Shown here piece after piece: positions 52,464 to 59,682 of a DNA stretch of 64,000 nucleotides. A model generated the notes under the pieces. It searched no databases. It had not been told where the DNA came from and saw nothing but the letters and a program-made list of their open reading frames with translations. Both the position numbers and the translations under genes were made by a program. This DNA is from Faecalibacter bovis. GTDB lineage: Bacteria > Bacteroidota > Bacteroidia > Flavobacteriales > Weeksellaceae. The stretch lies in the NCBI RefSeq assembly GCF_017948305.1, contig NZ_CP072842.1, positions 1,928,501 to 1,992,500 on the forward strand. The letters run 5' to 3'. The number at the start of each line of letters is the position of its first letter. Position 1 is the first letter of the stretch.

Positions 52464-52645
52464 AACGAGCCGAGTATTTGCGAAGAACGGGAGAGAAATT
52501 GAACGAAGTTCAAGTTCGTGCGTTCAAGCAAATTGCTCTTTTCTGAAACTAAATTAGATTAAAGTTTTAAGAAAAGCAATTTTGCGAGCGGAAAAGAATG
52601 GGATGAAAGTTTACTTTCAGACCGTTTTTTGCGAAATACTTTGTT
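52464..52645 (-). repeat. attC-like repeat R2
   Basis: A 182-bp repeat from AAC to GTT of the main sequence group: left end ACAACGAGCCGAGTATTTGC, right end TTGCGAAATACTTTGTTGTA. Internal stems are TTGAAC/GTTCAA, the CAAATTGCTCTTTTCT / AGAAAAGCAATTTTG pair, and GAAAGT/ACTTTC. Just left of it stands GCGTTAGCC, a second core-like motif that suggests an old junction lost beside the IS. Confidence 0.8.
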
Positions 52646-52658
52646 GTACGCAGTTTAT

Positions 52659-53114
52659 TTAATATTCATCTTCCATAGTTTTGTCAATCCAATCTATGAA
52701 ATTTCTCCATTTATAATTTGGGTTAGATTCAATAGCGTTTGAGTTATGGTCAAAAATCACAATAGGATATTCAGATTTAGAACTTCTATTATCAAAACAC
52801 CAAAAATCTCCATTATCTTGTTTGAAAGGTGTTAGATATTCGGGTAATTTTAATTCTGCATAATCTTTTAATACTTCTTCTAAACTCATATAAGGTTCAA
52901 GTAAGCTATTTGCAAAACCAAATCCATCAAAAGCAAAATTTCCGATCGGAATTTCTTTGCAATATTTTAGTTGAAATTCGATAAATGATTTCGGAAACTG
53001 ACATTTATATTTTTCAATTAGTTTATTCAAGTCCGTTTCATTGGGTTCAGGATAATTCGGTGGGAACGCTGGTTCTCGTTCAGAATATTTTGATTTTATA
53101 TCTTCAAATGTCAT
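52659..53114 (-). CDS. SMI1/KNR4 (SUKH) family protein, cassette cargo
   Basis: A 151-residue single SUKH-type domain: LNKLIEKYKCQFPKSFIEFQ, then FGFANSLLEPYMSLEEVLKD, and NGDFWCFDNRSS with PIVIFDHN near the end. SUKH proteins include immunity proteins against polymorphic toxins; no toxin gene is near. The ATG at 53114 is taken as start; an in-frame TTG at 53135 lies within the recombination core. The cassette is bounded by GTTGTACGC and GCGTACAAC, exact inverted copies. Confidence 0.82.
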   Translation of the reverse strand: MTFEDIKSKYSEREPAFPPNYPEPNETDLNKLIEKYKCQFPKSFIEFQLKYCKEIPIGNFAFDGFGFANSLLEPYMSLEEVLKDYAELKLPEYLTPFKQDNGDFWCFDNRSSKSEYPIVIFDHNSNAIESNPNYKWRNFIDWIDKTMEDEY

Positions 53115-53133
53115 GTTTGGAAAAATTGCGTAC

Positions 53134-53217
53134 AACGGTTCGGTGTTAGCGAACTACGGAGTAAATAAAACTAATACGGTAAGTGATTTCAAACCGTAGT
53201 TTCGCTAAATACTTGTT
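53134..53217 (-). repeat. Short attC-like repeat R3
   Basis: This 84-bp repeat has a single stem: AACGGTTCGGTGTTAGCGAA on the left and CGCTAAATACTTGTTATG on the right, with CTACGG/CCGTAG innermost. It lacks the three internal branches of the others and is closest in size and form to a classical attC site. Confidence 0.8.
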
Positions 53218-53259
53218 ATGTGATGTACTTATTTTAAAACACAAAAATTAATTAACTAA

Positions 53260-53643
53260 ATGACTAAAGAAGAAAAAATAAAAGAAGCTTAGGATAACGC
53301 TGATGGATTAAATAAAAATAATTGGGCTAACCATTGGACATACGATATGGCGAAAAAACATGGAATGGATAAAGATGGTTGGATTAAAGTATGTGGATAT
53401 GAACCTGGAGAAGGAATGGTTTGTGATTATATGAGGCCACCACAGTTAAAAGGTATTGAGGATAACAACGGTTGGAATATTATTACTGATGATTTAGAAT
53501 TTACAACAGAAATATTTTGGCTTTATAATTCAAGTAATATAGACTTGTTTAGAGGTCGTTTGTTTGATGATGATAAATTACCGATTCATAGATACGCTAC
53601 ACATTACCAACCAATTGAAAAACCTAAACCACCAATTTATTAA
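53260..53643 (+). pseudogene. Cassette gene in reverse orientation with in-frame TAG
   Basis: The frame MTKEEKIKEA, TAG at 53290-53292, then DNADGLNKNNWANHWTYDMA continues to 53643 without another stop. The intact protein would have 127 residues. The remaining ATG at 53347 gives 98 residues. It is the only cassette gene on the + strand. The cassette ends GTTATGTGATGTACTTA (53215) and, inverted, TAAGTATATCACATAAC (ending 53657) match at 16 of 17 positions. Function unknown. Confidence 0.65.
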
Positions 53644-53654
53644 GTATATCACAT

Positions 53655-53837
53655 AACGAGCCGAGTATTTGCGAAGAACGGGAGAGAATTTGAACGAAGT
53701 TCAAGTTCGTCGGTTCAAGCAAATTGCTCTTTTCTGAAACTAAATTAGTTTATTGTTTTAAGAAAAGCAATTTTGCGAGTGGAAAAGAATGGAATGAAAG
53801 TTTACTTTTCAGACCGTATTTTGCGAAATACTTTGTT
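53655..53837 (-). repeat. attC-like repeat R4
   Basis: A 183-bp repeat. The outer stem is GTATTTGCGAAGAACGG against CCGTATTTTGCGAAATAC. Branches: TTGAAC(53690)/GTTCAA(53699); GCAAATTGCTCTTTTCT (53719-53735)/AGAAAAGCAATTTTGC (53761-53776); GAAAG/CTTTTC near 53796-53810. Confidence 0.85.
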
Positions 53838-53852
53838 ATCTGCAGTCGCAAT

Positions 53853-57906: not shown

Positions 57907-57919
57907 GTACGCAGGCATT

Positions 57920-58324
57920 TTAGTATTCTATTATATTTTCTGGTCGTTGTTGCCAAATAGCCAAATATTGTCCTGTCGACATTTTTCGAGCAGAGTTTTT
58001 AGCTTTGTCGGCATATTCTCCTTCATAAAGTTCGTCAATAGTCTCAAACCAAATTTGCAACCATCTCCCAAAATGCTTTTGTTCAATGCTATAATTTAAA
58101 TTTTTGTCAACATTGATATGCTTTTGCGTTGGGTTTCCTTTGAATTTTGCAACTCCAAATAAATTAGTTTCCCAAAAATCAGTCAATTTGTCAAGATGCT
58201 CTGGCCACTTATCATCTGAAATGTGAGCATTAAAAATTGGCCCCAATAGTTCGTCTACTTTTACTTTTGAATAAAAACTATTCACTAAAATATTTATGTC
58301 GCTTCTGTTATCAATTTGTCTCAT
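57920..58324 (-). CDS. Group 3-type truncated globin, cassette cargo
   Basis: A 134-residue globin. Typical segments: VDELLGPIFNAHI, HLDKLTDFWETNLFGVAKFK, NPTQKH, HFGRWLQIWFETIDELYEGE with the proximal histidine, and ARKMSTGQYLAIWQ. Group 3 truncated haemoglobins bind O2 or NO and are linked to redox or NO protection. It starts 11 bases after the cupin gene in the same cassette, so the two form a two-gene unit. Confidence 0.88.
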   Translation of the reverse strand: MRQIDNRSDINILVNSFYSKVKVDELLGPIFNAHISDDKWPEHLDKLTDFWETNLFGVAKFKGNPTQKHINVDKNLNYSIEQKHFGRWLQIWFETIDELYEGEYADKAKNSARKMSTGQYLAIWQQRPENIIEY

Positions 58325-58335
58325 TGCGAATCAAT

Positions 58336-58677
58336 TTAGTTTTCAAGAACACTTTTAACTCTTTCTACTTTATCATGTTTTGATAGAGTTAGGCGTACAA
58401 TTGAATCTTCAACTGCTATTAAATTGTGAGGAATGTTACCATCCAATGCAATAATATCGCCATCTTTCATATCATACATTTCGCTTTGCACACCTAATTT
58501 TAAATTTCCCTGTATTATGTGAATTATAATTGGGAAAGGCGTCTTATGCTCTTTCATAACCTGTCCACTTTTTATAAGAATTCGTATTTCTTTTGAAAAT
58601 GAAGTTTCAACAATAACCTTTGATATAACATGGTTTTCGTTAAATTCAATTTCGTCGTTAAATGATAATTTGTCCAT
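58336..58677 (-). CDS. Small cupin protein, cassette cargo
   Basis: A 113-residue cupin: VMKEHKTPFPIIIHIIQGNL with the first His motif, GDIIALDGNIPHNLIAVEDS with the later G and H. The start is the ATG at 58677; the in-frame TTG at 58704 is part of the recombination core. It precedes the globin gene. Pairing of a cupin with a group 3 globin suggests a joint redox or NO-related task, but that is inference. Cassette ends: GTTGTACGCAGGCAT and, inverted, ATGCTTGCGTACAAC. Confidence 0.82.
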   Translation of the reverse strand: MDKLSFNDEIEFNENHVISKVIVETSFSKEIRILIKSGQVMKEHKTPFPIIIHIIQGNLKLGVQSEMYDMKDGDIIALDGNIPHNLIAVEDSIVRLTLSKHDKVERVKSVLEN

Positions 58678-58702
58678 ATGGTCTGTTTTTATGCTTGCGT
58701 AC

Positions 58703-58889
58703 AACGTTTCGAGGCTTGGCGATAGTGCGGGCTTGAATTGAGCGAAAGTTCAATTCAGACCGAAACTGAGCCAAAGCCAATTTCTATTTGCTAATATAAT
58801 TAAAAAGCCAATAAAATTGGCTTTTGGCGATTTAATAAGCACATAAGTTCAACTTTGCAGTTAACCCCGCATTTCGCCAAGGCTTTGTT
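58703..58889 (-). repeat. attC-like repeat R10
   Basis: A 187-bp repeat of the third group: left AACGTTTCGAGGCTTGGCGA, right ATTTCGCCAAGGCTTTGTTG. Branches: GAATTGA/TCAATTC; CCAAAGCCAATTT/AAATTGGCTTTTGG; AAGTTCAACTT. Confidence 0.82.
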
Positions 58890-58898
58890 GTGGGCAGT

Positions 58899-59474
58899 TT
58901 ATTTTTCAAAGCTTGAGTTTAATAAAGCAAATTTGAATTTATCTCCAAATTCTTTATCTACATATATTATATTTATTGACAATTCGTTATTATCTTCAAA
59001 CAATCGATTAAATGACTCTAAGGTTCTTTTCGCACCGTTTGGATATATGATTGTTGACTTTTGATAAAAAAACTCCAAATTACTAATACTTATAGTATCG
59101 ACAGCGTAATCTATTTTGATTTCAGGGATTTCATCTTTGAGAGGTTGAATTTGAAGTTGAAAATTTTCTGTCAGATAATTAATGTAATTCTCTCGAGAAC
59201 CTTCATATTTAGTTCTTGTAGATTCAAAGTAGTCAGACTTACTTTTAAAAATAAAAATTGGTACTGATTGATTTTTAAATTCTACATTATTATATTTTTC
59301 AATTAATTCTCCACTTTGTTGCACTTTTTCCAGCCAATCTGTATTCGATACTCTATTATATTCGACAGGAAAATCTATAGTCCAATTAAAATCGTTATTG
59401 AAATTTGACTTTTGTATTTGACATCCTTCAAACAATAAAATTAAAATGAATAGAAGAAAAAATTTATGATTCAT
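58899..59474 (-). CDS. Hypothetical lipoprotein, cassette cargo
   Basis: A 191-residue lipoprotein (lipobox FEGC, residues 15-18). The mature part has NWTIDFPVEYNRVSNTDWLE and ends LSINIIYVDKEFGDKFKFAL; it resembles small envelope proteins of Flavobacteriia but no family is named. It is the first gene of the array next to the recombinase. The cassette ends are GTTGTGGGCAGTTTATTTT and, inverted, AAATTGCCCACAAC. Confidence 0.72.
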   Translation of the reverse strand: MNHKFFLLFILILLFEGCQIQKSNFNNDFNWTIDFPVEYNRVSNTDWLEKVQQSGELIEKYNNVEFKNQSVPIFIFKSKSDYFESTRTKYEGSRENYINYLTENFQLQIQPLKDEIPEIKIDYAVDTISISNLEFFYQKSTIIYPNGAKRTLESFNRLFEDNNELSINIIYVDKEFGDKFKFALLNSSFEK

Positions 59475-59497
59475 AGTTCTAATTTTAAATTGCCCAC

Positions 59498-59682
59498 AAC
59501 GGAAAAAGTATTGGCGAAGTGCGGGCTAAAAATGAACTTTAGTTCAATTTTCGACCAAGCGTAGCCGATGCTTTTTCAGATTGTCTAAATTAAACAAAAA
59601 AACAATATGAAAAGCAGCGGCGGATAAAAAAGTAGAGTAGTTCAACTTTTTACTTCTCCCCGCATTTTGCCAATACGATGTT
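59498..59682 (-). repeat. attC-like repeat R11, boundary of the array
   Basis: A 185-bp repeat: left CACAACGGAAAAAGTATTGG, right GCCAATACGATGTTATCC. Branches: TGAAC/GTTCA; GCCGATGCTTTTTCA/TGAAAAGCAGCGGC; AAAAGT/ACTTTT. Its outer core GTTATCCAAAAACT has no inverted partner in the window, so on this side the array ends in either a recombinase attachment site or a lost cassette. Confidence 0.8.

Follow-up and report, generated by a model that had tools for sequence, protein, structure and literature searches.

Integrons, best known from the Vibrio superintegron and from class 1 elements, combine an integrase gene with an adjoining attI that ends in a bare GTT and carries a promoter. Their cassettes are compact, promoterless and aligned in one direction, and are separated by hairpin sites lying between AAC and GTT, in which the two ends of one cassette are complementary and the bottom strand folds better; the cassettes recur, reorder and carry resistance genes. 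An IntI-specific domain of the integrase is thought necessary for recognition of folded attC (PMC8138268, PMC9024848), and a single Bacteroidetes integron, in Salinibacter, was named by IntegronFinder 2.0 (PMC9024848). The platform to which the locus described here, from Faecalibacter bovis, belongs shares all the listed traits of integrons. We consider it very probable that a sedentary chromosomal integron-like platform has its distal end in the window (the whole stretch of 64,000 nucleotides that was analysed), and that it captures circular cassettes at attI by means of a dedicated XerA/IntI-like recombinase. No earlier description of this platform was found in the literature searched; integron surveys take the IntI domain as the defining feature and so have missed it.

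The first-pass annotation had reported nine consecutive cassettes with cassette-specific inverted ends at 52464-59682, all sharing an AAC/GTT core, and both the coordinates and the core are correct. Ten attC-like AAC...GTT sites enclose the nine cassettes, flanked by two interrupting elements:

51399-52397, minus strand, IS30-family transposase that cuts off the distal end of the array
52464-52645, minus strand, site R0, 182 nt, AAC...GTT; the IS30 insertion severed its own cassette on the left
52643-53136, minus strand, cassette 1, arms GTTGTACGCA / TGCGTACAAC
52659-53135, minus strand, cassette 1 gene, SUKH/SMI1-KNR4 family (Pfam SUKH_5)
53134-53217, minus strand, site R1, short form, 84 nt
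53215-53657, minus strand, cassette 2, 17-base arms with one mismatch
53347-53643, plus strand, cassette 2 gene, 98 aa, in the rare opposite direction
53655-53837, minus strand, site R2, 183 nt
53835-54408, minus strand, cassette 3, gene for a 170-aa exported protein; second copy, 100% identical, at C1:2025190-2025763
54406-54585, minus strand, site R3, 180 nt
54583-55223, minus strand, cassette 4, 197-aa gene; second copy, 100% identical, at C1:2019200-2019840
55221-55409, minus strand, site R4, 189 nt; same plan, different body sequence
55407-56022, minus strand, cassette 5, 187-aa gene
56020-56200, minus strand, site R5, 181 nt
56198-56924, minus strand, cassette 6, 229-aa lipoprotein-like gene
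56922-57104, minus strand, site R6, 183 nt
57102-57723, minus strand, cassette 7, DUF3885 gene
57721-57906, minus strand, site R7, 186 nt
57904-58705, minus strand, cassette 8, two genes (122 aa and 134 aa)
58703-58889, minus strand, site R8, 187 nt
58887-59500, minus strand, cassette 9, 191-aa lipoprotein-like gene
59498-59682, minus strand, site R9, 185 nt, with the island inserted at its GTT end
59683-64000, no strand, left part of a genomic island (27.8 kb in total) inserted in the array
59920-61137, plus strand, island integrase, 405 aa (Arm-DNA-bind_5, SAM_5 and Phage_integrase)
C1:2043425-2044489, outside the window, array tyrosine recombinase, 354 aa, beside attI

Apart from the second site, R1 (84 nt), the sites in the window measure 180-189 nt, and their bodies are up to 94-95% identical to one another. 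No Pfam family matched window cassettes 2-6, and for the cassette 5 gene neither a Pfam nor an NCBIfam family was found. An Rfam scan of the array returned no relevant match, with no attC family among the hits.

In every window cassette (9/9), the six bases after GTT are an exact inverted copy of the six before the next AAC, as the first-pass annotation had it, while off-diagonal arm pairs match at 1-5 of 6 bases, barring chance cases of two cassettes with identical arms. In 8/9 cassettes the pairing is perfect as far as base 10, base 11 is mismatched in all nine, and pairing often resumes for 3-5 bases beyond. Because base 11 is always mismatched and the match then resumes, the second of the first-pass example pairs, given as 17 bases, contains one mismatch. 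Plain chain counts of perfect 9-nt arm ends are noisy in AT-rich DNA (2-3 by chance, at most 3 in control regions) and were therefore replaced by a strict signature with no matches in controls: perfect 9-nt arms, an A/G mismatch at position 11 and two of three matches at positions 12-14. Across the whole window this signature returned exactly the nine cassettes and one stray (14950-16815), compared with a mean of 0.35 matches over 200 shuffles. The array pattern is not a product of chance.

The sites are imperfect palindromes between AAC and GTT boxes and are conserved in fold more than in sequence, which varies widely between genera. The boxes read GTTRNNN / NNNYAAC, not strictly GTTRRRY. Unlike those of integrons, the arms run over 10-17 nt and always carry a mismatch at base 11, and for this reason adjoining arms in the array do not pair; site length (59-190 nt) is a further difference. 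The A/G mismatch at arm position 11 is universal and makes the bottom strand fold better in 34 of 35 sites, and the circle form folds better than the array form in all 35. Both are computed results, and the bottom-strand stability bias is a matter of computation only.

The array extends outside the window and comprises 42 or more cassettes, all oriented alike and with perfect 9-nt arms; the nine in the window form its far end. It terminates in a bare GTT, some 140 nt away from the recombinase gene; this attI lies next to the integrase gene and ends in the GTT where cassettes enter. In the attI of three species (G000, G005 and G006) the motif TTTG-N19-TATATTTG directly precedes the first cassette, a predicted promoter of canonical Bacteroidota type that would read into the array as a Pc-like element. 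The genes point away from attI in 38/40 and 181/197 cassettes, and the cassettes are compact (ATG 36 nt inside, 91% coding) and mostly promoterless. The platform's array often lies 3' of the integrase gene, in contrast to integrons.

Comparison between genomes shows that cassettes move as exact units, with the boundary at GTT/AAC. Cassette 6 recurs in G006 at 99.9% identity across exactly the cassette (727 nt), beside a different neighbour. In one other species, whose integrase is only 66% identical, two cassettes match over exactly GTT...AAC at 99.8-99.9% identity and stand in a different order; duplicates inside the array are 100% identical. Four sister species with nearly identical attI each carry a different first cassette, and the sequence that they share begins at the AAC core. 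Gain, loss and reordering were each found as exact-unit changes. A fixed order in relatives, which the first-pass annotation had named as evidence against exchange, was not found, and the exchange boundaries fall exactly at cassette ends.

Homologous recombination between similar 180-nt bodies could in principle shuffle the genes, with the inverted arms as terminators or relics. The bodies are similar enough to recombine, and the sites are strong hairpins. Yet this explanation, which we regard as very unlikely, accounts neither for the matching of each cassette's two arms nor for a fixed mismatch of uniform polarity; the junctions fall exactly at AAC in an attI that has no body, and the same cassette occurs beside unrelated bodies in other orders. 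It is extremely unlikely that the cassettes are moved by the Arm-domain integrase adjoining the array (59920-61137), which is 237 nt away from the window's last site and was first taken as the array integrase. That assignment was rejected, since the gene is part of the 27.8-kb island. The island has a 13-bp site core, AATACGATGTTAT, repeated at both ends, so that these repeats bound the island and not the array, which it splits in two and which resumes on the far side. Before the insertion, R9 ran into the cassette that now starts at C1:2015951 (GTTATGTGTAG). In another species (G008) the attI is occupied by a related island whose integrase is of the same kind, and arrays in other genera have no Arm-domain integrase adjoining them. 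The island carries ars-type genes and then, beyond the window, the BREX genes brxC, pglX, brxH, pglZ and brxA.

The array's own recombinase is XerA/IntI-like. It does not have the 42-residue insert of IntI: its TIGR02249 (IntI) match consists of two pieces flanking the missing insert and scores 188.6 bits against a cut-off of 265, and the KDR-HxLRH spacing is 64 residues, compared with 106 in true IntI. Because the IntI-specific domain is missing, the enzyme is not an IntI, and the absence of a domain regarded as necessary for recognising folded attC weighs against the platform model. The first-pass reading of an integron fits every comparative test but needs amending as regards the integrase, which lies outside the window and is not an IntI. 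The best profile is NF040815 (XerA/XerC-like), and the nearest solved folds are XerA and DNA-bound IntI4. By contrast with XerA/XerC-like recombinases, the protein falls below the family cut-off (207 versus 220 bits), and the platform's enzymes are linked to cassette arrays and attI instead of dif. Catalytic residues are invariant in the family, and in many of its members there is an additional N-terminal domain of roughly 80 aa, seen neither in integron integrases nor in XerA/XerC-like enzymes. In the phylogeny, IntI forms a clade (support 100) that contains none of the array integrases; a sister relation of the two is neither shown nor rejected by the AU test (p 0.36-0.41).

A signature cassette lies within 30-320 nt at 38/75 integrase loci, versus 3.8% of random positions, and the mismatch polarity agrees with the attI side at 38/38 of these loci; 18 control regions contained no signature cassette. 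By this comparison, integrase, attI and array belong together. About half of the homologous integrase loci have no adjacent signature cassette, for which possible reasons are contig ends, empty platforms or other roles.

Could the locus instead be a canonical integron or CALIN, with a true IntI elsewhere or recently lost and an unrelated recombinase as neighbour? The sites do follow the attC plan, and IntI occurs in other classes of the phylum (57/198 genomes). But the closed source genome has no IntI above the cut-off, and in class Bacteroidia IntI is present in 1/198 genomes against 91/198 for the array-recombinase family; it is this family, not IntI, that is found at attI in genus after genus. 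We judge this alternative highly improbable. We give almost no credence to mobilisation by housekeeping XerC/XerD at dif-like sites, as in the pdif modules of Acinetobacter plasmids. These too are gene modules between inverted Xer-type sites, moved by Xer-type recombination, and pdif sites occur on Acinetobacter tet(X) plasmids (PMC7530245). However, pdif sites are 28 bp long with a 6-bp spacer and have no hairpin body, dedicated integrase or attI, whereas the hairpins here measure 84-189 nt (59-190 nt elsewhere) and have cassette-specific arms; a dedicated recombinase adjoins the array, and the genome encodes its XerC/XerD-like pair separately.

For the integron-like platform, we propose that the recombinase would capture circular cassettes at the adjoining attI, each unit consisting of GTT-gene-AAC and an attC-like hairpin body, with capture and loss through exchange within the GTT/AAC core. 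We infer that the intermediates are circles folded as single strands, that the bottom strand serves as substrate, and that the enzyme is this recombinase, which would probably act on the cassette site in its folded bottom-strand form. Once a cassette is circular, its two matching arms would pair and extend the hairpin; the attI promoter would drive the newest cassettes. If confirmed, this would show that capture of folded cassettes does not depend on the IntI insert, and the origin of integrons would thereby become testable.

On balance, we lean towards a broader view, that the platform is an integron of a second kind, which either arose independently or survives from the stage before IntI gained its extra domain. 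In class Bacteroidia it would be the standard system of cassette capture, and tet(X), ere(D), aadS, lnu(H) and catB would have become mobile as cassettes within it, some of them later passing to Acinetobacter and Enterobacteria by way of other elements. Since the platform occurs commonly in Bacteroidota, with tet(X) among the resistance genes it carries, it probably represents a major channel of gene exchange that has escaped notice, and its sequence signature offers a means of searching gut, veterinary and environmental Bacteroidota for resistance genes borne on cassettes.

The platform bears on the question, raised in the tet(X) literature, of whether the neighbouring 'xerD' mobilises tet(X) (PMC7473080). 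Papers on xerD-tet(X) in Acinetobacter and Empedobacter name the gene and report no integron (PMC7473080, PMC7530245); the later spread in Acinetobacter is credited to ISCR2. An identical 1208-nt tet(X2) cassette occurs in three bacterial orders, in a chromosomal array of this platform and on Bacteroides and Sphingobacterium plasmids, and in several contexts matches among tet(X) plasmids stop at its last base. In Acinetobacter p34AB, no perfect arm pair surrounds tet(X3) and the end arms are degenerate; tet(X3) is homologous over exactly the cassette, and in Acinetobacter the gene named 'xerD' that lies upstream of tet(X3) encodes a truncated integrase of the array family.

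Upon close examination of the window, we found ten AAC...GTT sites at 52464-59682 that bound nine cassettes. In all nine, the sequence 3' of GTT is the inverted copy of the sequence 5' of the next AAC, and these arms are cassette-specific, those of separate cassettes being unlike each other. The repeats, the inverted ends and the individual arm sequences claimed in the first-pass annotation are thus real. Arms pair perfectly over 10 bases in eight of the nine cassettes; base 11 is mismatched in every one, after which pairing often resumes for a few bases. A search of the whole window for this signature (perfect 9-nt arms, an A/G mismatch at base 11 and two of three matches at bases 12-14) returned the nine array cassettes and one stray arm pair at 14950-16815, which is most likely due to chance, as shuffled sequence leads one to expect 0.35 per window.

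The array extends beyond the window (C1:1928501-1992500, in contig coordinates of the closed, 2.84-Mb genome). The same sites recur over C1:2015951-2043286, a second stretch that holds 33 more cassettes with perfect 9-nt arms. Between the two stretches lies a 27.8-kb island, which starts at the GTT end of the window's last site and has the 13-bp core AATACGATGTTAT at both ends. The elements that interrupt or bound the array are as follows (window positions unless prefixed C1).

51399-52397: IS30 element, cutting the array's other end
59683-64000, continuing over C1:1992501-2015944: genomic island with an Arm-domain integrase, inserted at attC
59920-61137: the island's own Arm-domain integrase

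The two stretches once formed one array, which the island split. Among the island's genes are ars-type genes and those of a BREX system (BrxC, PglX, BrxH, PglZ, BrxA). In a sister species (G008; L046:3786 and L045:17707), a related island with a similar Arm-domain integrase lies inside attI, with AACACTCAAATATACGAA doubled. Because one island sits in an attC and its relative in an attI, such islands land on integron sites, the attI or attC core being the landing site.

At the proximal end, non-repeat DNA separates the final cassette arm, GCAGGTAAC, from the gene for a 354-amino-acid tyrosine recombinase (C1:2043425-2044489). Seen from the recombinase, each cassette reads GTT-arm-gene-arm'-AAC, followed by a hairpin body, and attI terminates in a bare GTT, which is the layout of integrons. 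Directly 5' of the attI GTT, three species share TTTG-N19-TATATTTG, the -33/-7 consensus of Bacteroidota promoters; by this match, attI should carry the array's promoter.

Comparisons with relatives reveal what moves. Cassette 6 of the window (numbered from the left; 727 nt) is 99.9% identical, exactly cassette-wide, to a cassette in another species (G006) whose integrase is only 66% identical, and a second cassette (434 nt) matches there at 99.8%, again exactly cassette-wide. The two are adjacent in that species and 46 kb apart in F. bovis, bearing out the reordering that the first-pass annotation had proposed to look for. Within the F. bovis array, cassettes 3 and 4 each have a 100% identical second copy, and one 468-nt cassette is present three times. 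In four sister species, attI and the integrase upstream regions are near-identical, the first cassette differs, and the common sequence starts at the AAC core. Together, these comparisons show that exact units were exchanged at GTT/AAC; they speak to the exchanged unit, not to the enzyme or the intermediate.

Cassette anatomy is similarly regular. The longest open reading frame points away from attI in 38 of 40 cassettes of the F. bovis genome and in 181 of 197 elsewhere; in F. bovis cassettes the ATG lies 36 nt past GTT, the stop 16 nt short of the end, and 91% of the cassette is coding (medians). In computed DNA folds that join each site to the arms of its cassette, mimicking the circle, the bottom strand was the stabler one in 34 of 35 cases, and in 35 of 35 the circle form was stabler than that of the array. 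At the fixed arm mismatch, A faces C in the top strand, and the bottom strand forms a G-T wobble. The polarity of the mismatch is the same across nearly all loci and matches the integrase side in 38 of 38. We infer that the fixed mismatch helps the recombinase to pick the strand.

The profile and fold neighbors of the recombinase (structure model pLDDT 85, pTM 0.57) are XerA and IntI, and its catalytic residues are invariant. The array recombinase lacks the insert that is proper to IntI: the KDR-to-HxLRH spacing is 64-65 residues in all cleanly measurable array integrases (two rows had a false motif hit or none) versus 106 in IntI. In the recombinase tree, IntI forms a separate clade with full support; as to whether it is sister to the array family, the data favor neither placement. 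In many members the N terminus forms a domain of some 80 residues (residues 1-80 here; strands and a WSxTxKxWY motif), which has no profile match, is absent in some members and is longer in others. The integron reading of the first-pass annotation is supported, with qualifications: layout and exact-unit exchange are as in integrons, but the recombinase is missing the IntI domain. Because that domain is the defining one, we do not place the platform (recombinase, attI and cassette array) among IntI integrons. It is an integron-like system of Bacteroidota, and all comparative evidence indicates that it works like an integron. No earlier description was found in the open PubMed Central papers that were searched. 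According to a large tyrosine recombinase study, integrons cannot function without the IntI insert (PMC8138268), and it is by this insert that IntegronFinder recognizes them (PMC9024848), which explains why the platform was overlooked.

In class Bacteroidia, the recombinase family occurs in 91 of 198 genomes, an upper bound for platforms given that the E-value limits may let in relatives with other roles, and true IntI in 1 of 198. In the wider phylum the family occurs in 114 of 395 and IntI in 57 of 198, the latter almost wholly outside Bacteroidia, as if both systems replaced each other. Signature cassettes lie 30-320 nt from the recombinase in 38 of 75 loci versus 3.8% of random positions, and 18 control regions from complete genomes contained none. 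Recombinase-adjoining arrays include those of Seonamhaeicola, Winogradskyella, Algibacter, Rufibacter and a Sphingobacteriales MAG. The Rufibacter sites (L069) measure 59 nt exactly, as does the classical 59-base element. Signature cassettes also accompany more distant recombinases on Firmicutes and Peregrinibacteria contigs (L097, four; L074, two), so the range of the system may extend outside Bacteroidota.

Plasmids of Empedobacter, Riemerella, Sphingobacterium and Bacteroides, and one Salmonella plasmid, carry resistance genes bordered by sites that resemble those in the window; such sites are likewise present on Myroides and Chryseobacterium plasmids. A Bacteroides xylanisolvens plasmid bears three successive cassettes with matching arms, those of tet(X2), ere(D) and aadS. 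Its 1208-nt tet(X2) cassette is 100% identical on a Sphingobacterium plasmid and stands twice in tandem, again identical, in a chromosomal array adjoining the recombinase (L049:12294-14828). ABC-F, lnu(H) and aadS genes are present in a further sister array. A study of tet(X14) noted that xerD adjoins the gene, saw no integron, and raised as a question whether xerD mobilizes tet(X) (PMC7473080). In p34AB, an Acinetobacter plasmid with tet(X3), we observed that 'xerD' is a truncated member of the array recombinase family (L174:5319-7365). After it come an attI-like stretch and then tet(X3), with homology spanning the whole cassette. This comparison suggests that xerD once mobilized tet(X), before ISCR2 took over in Acinetobacter.
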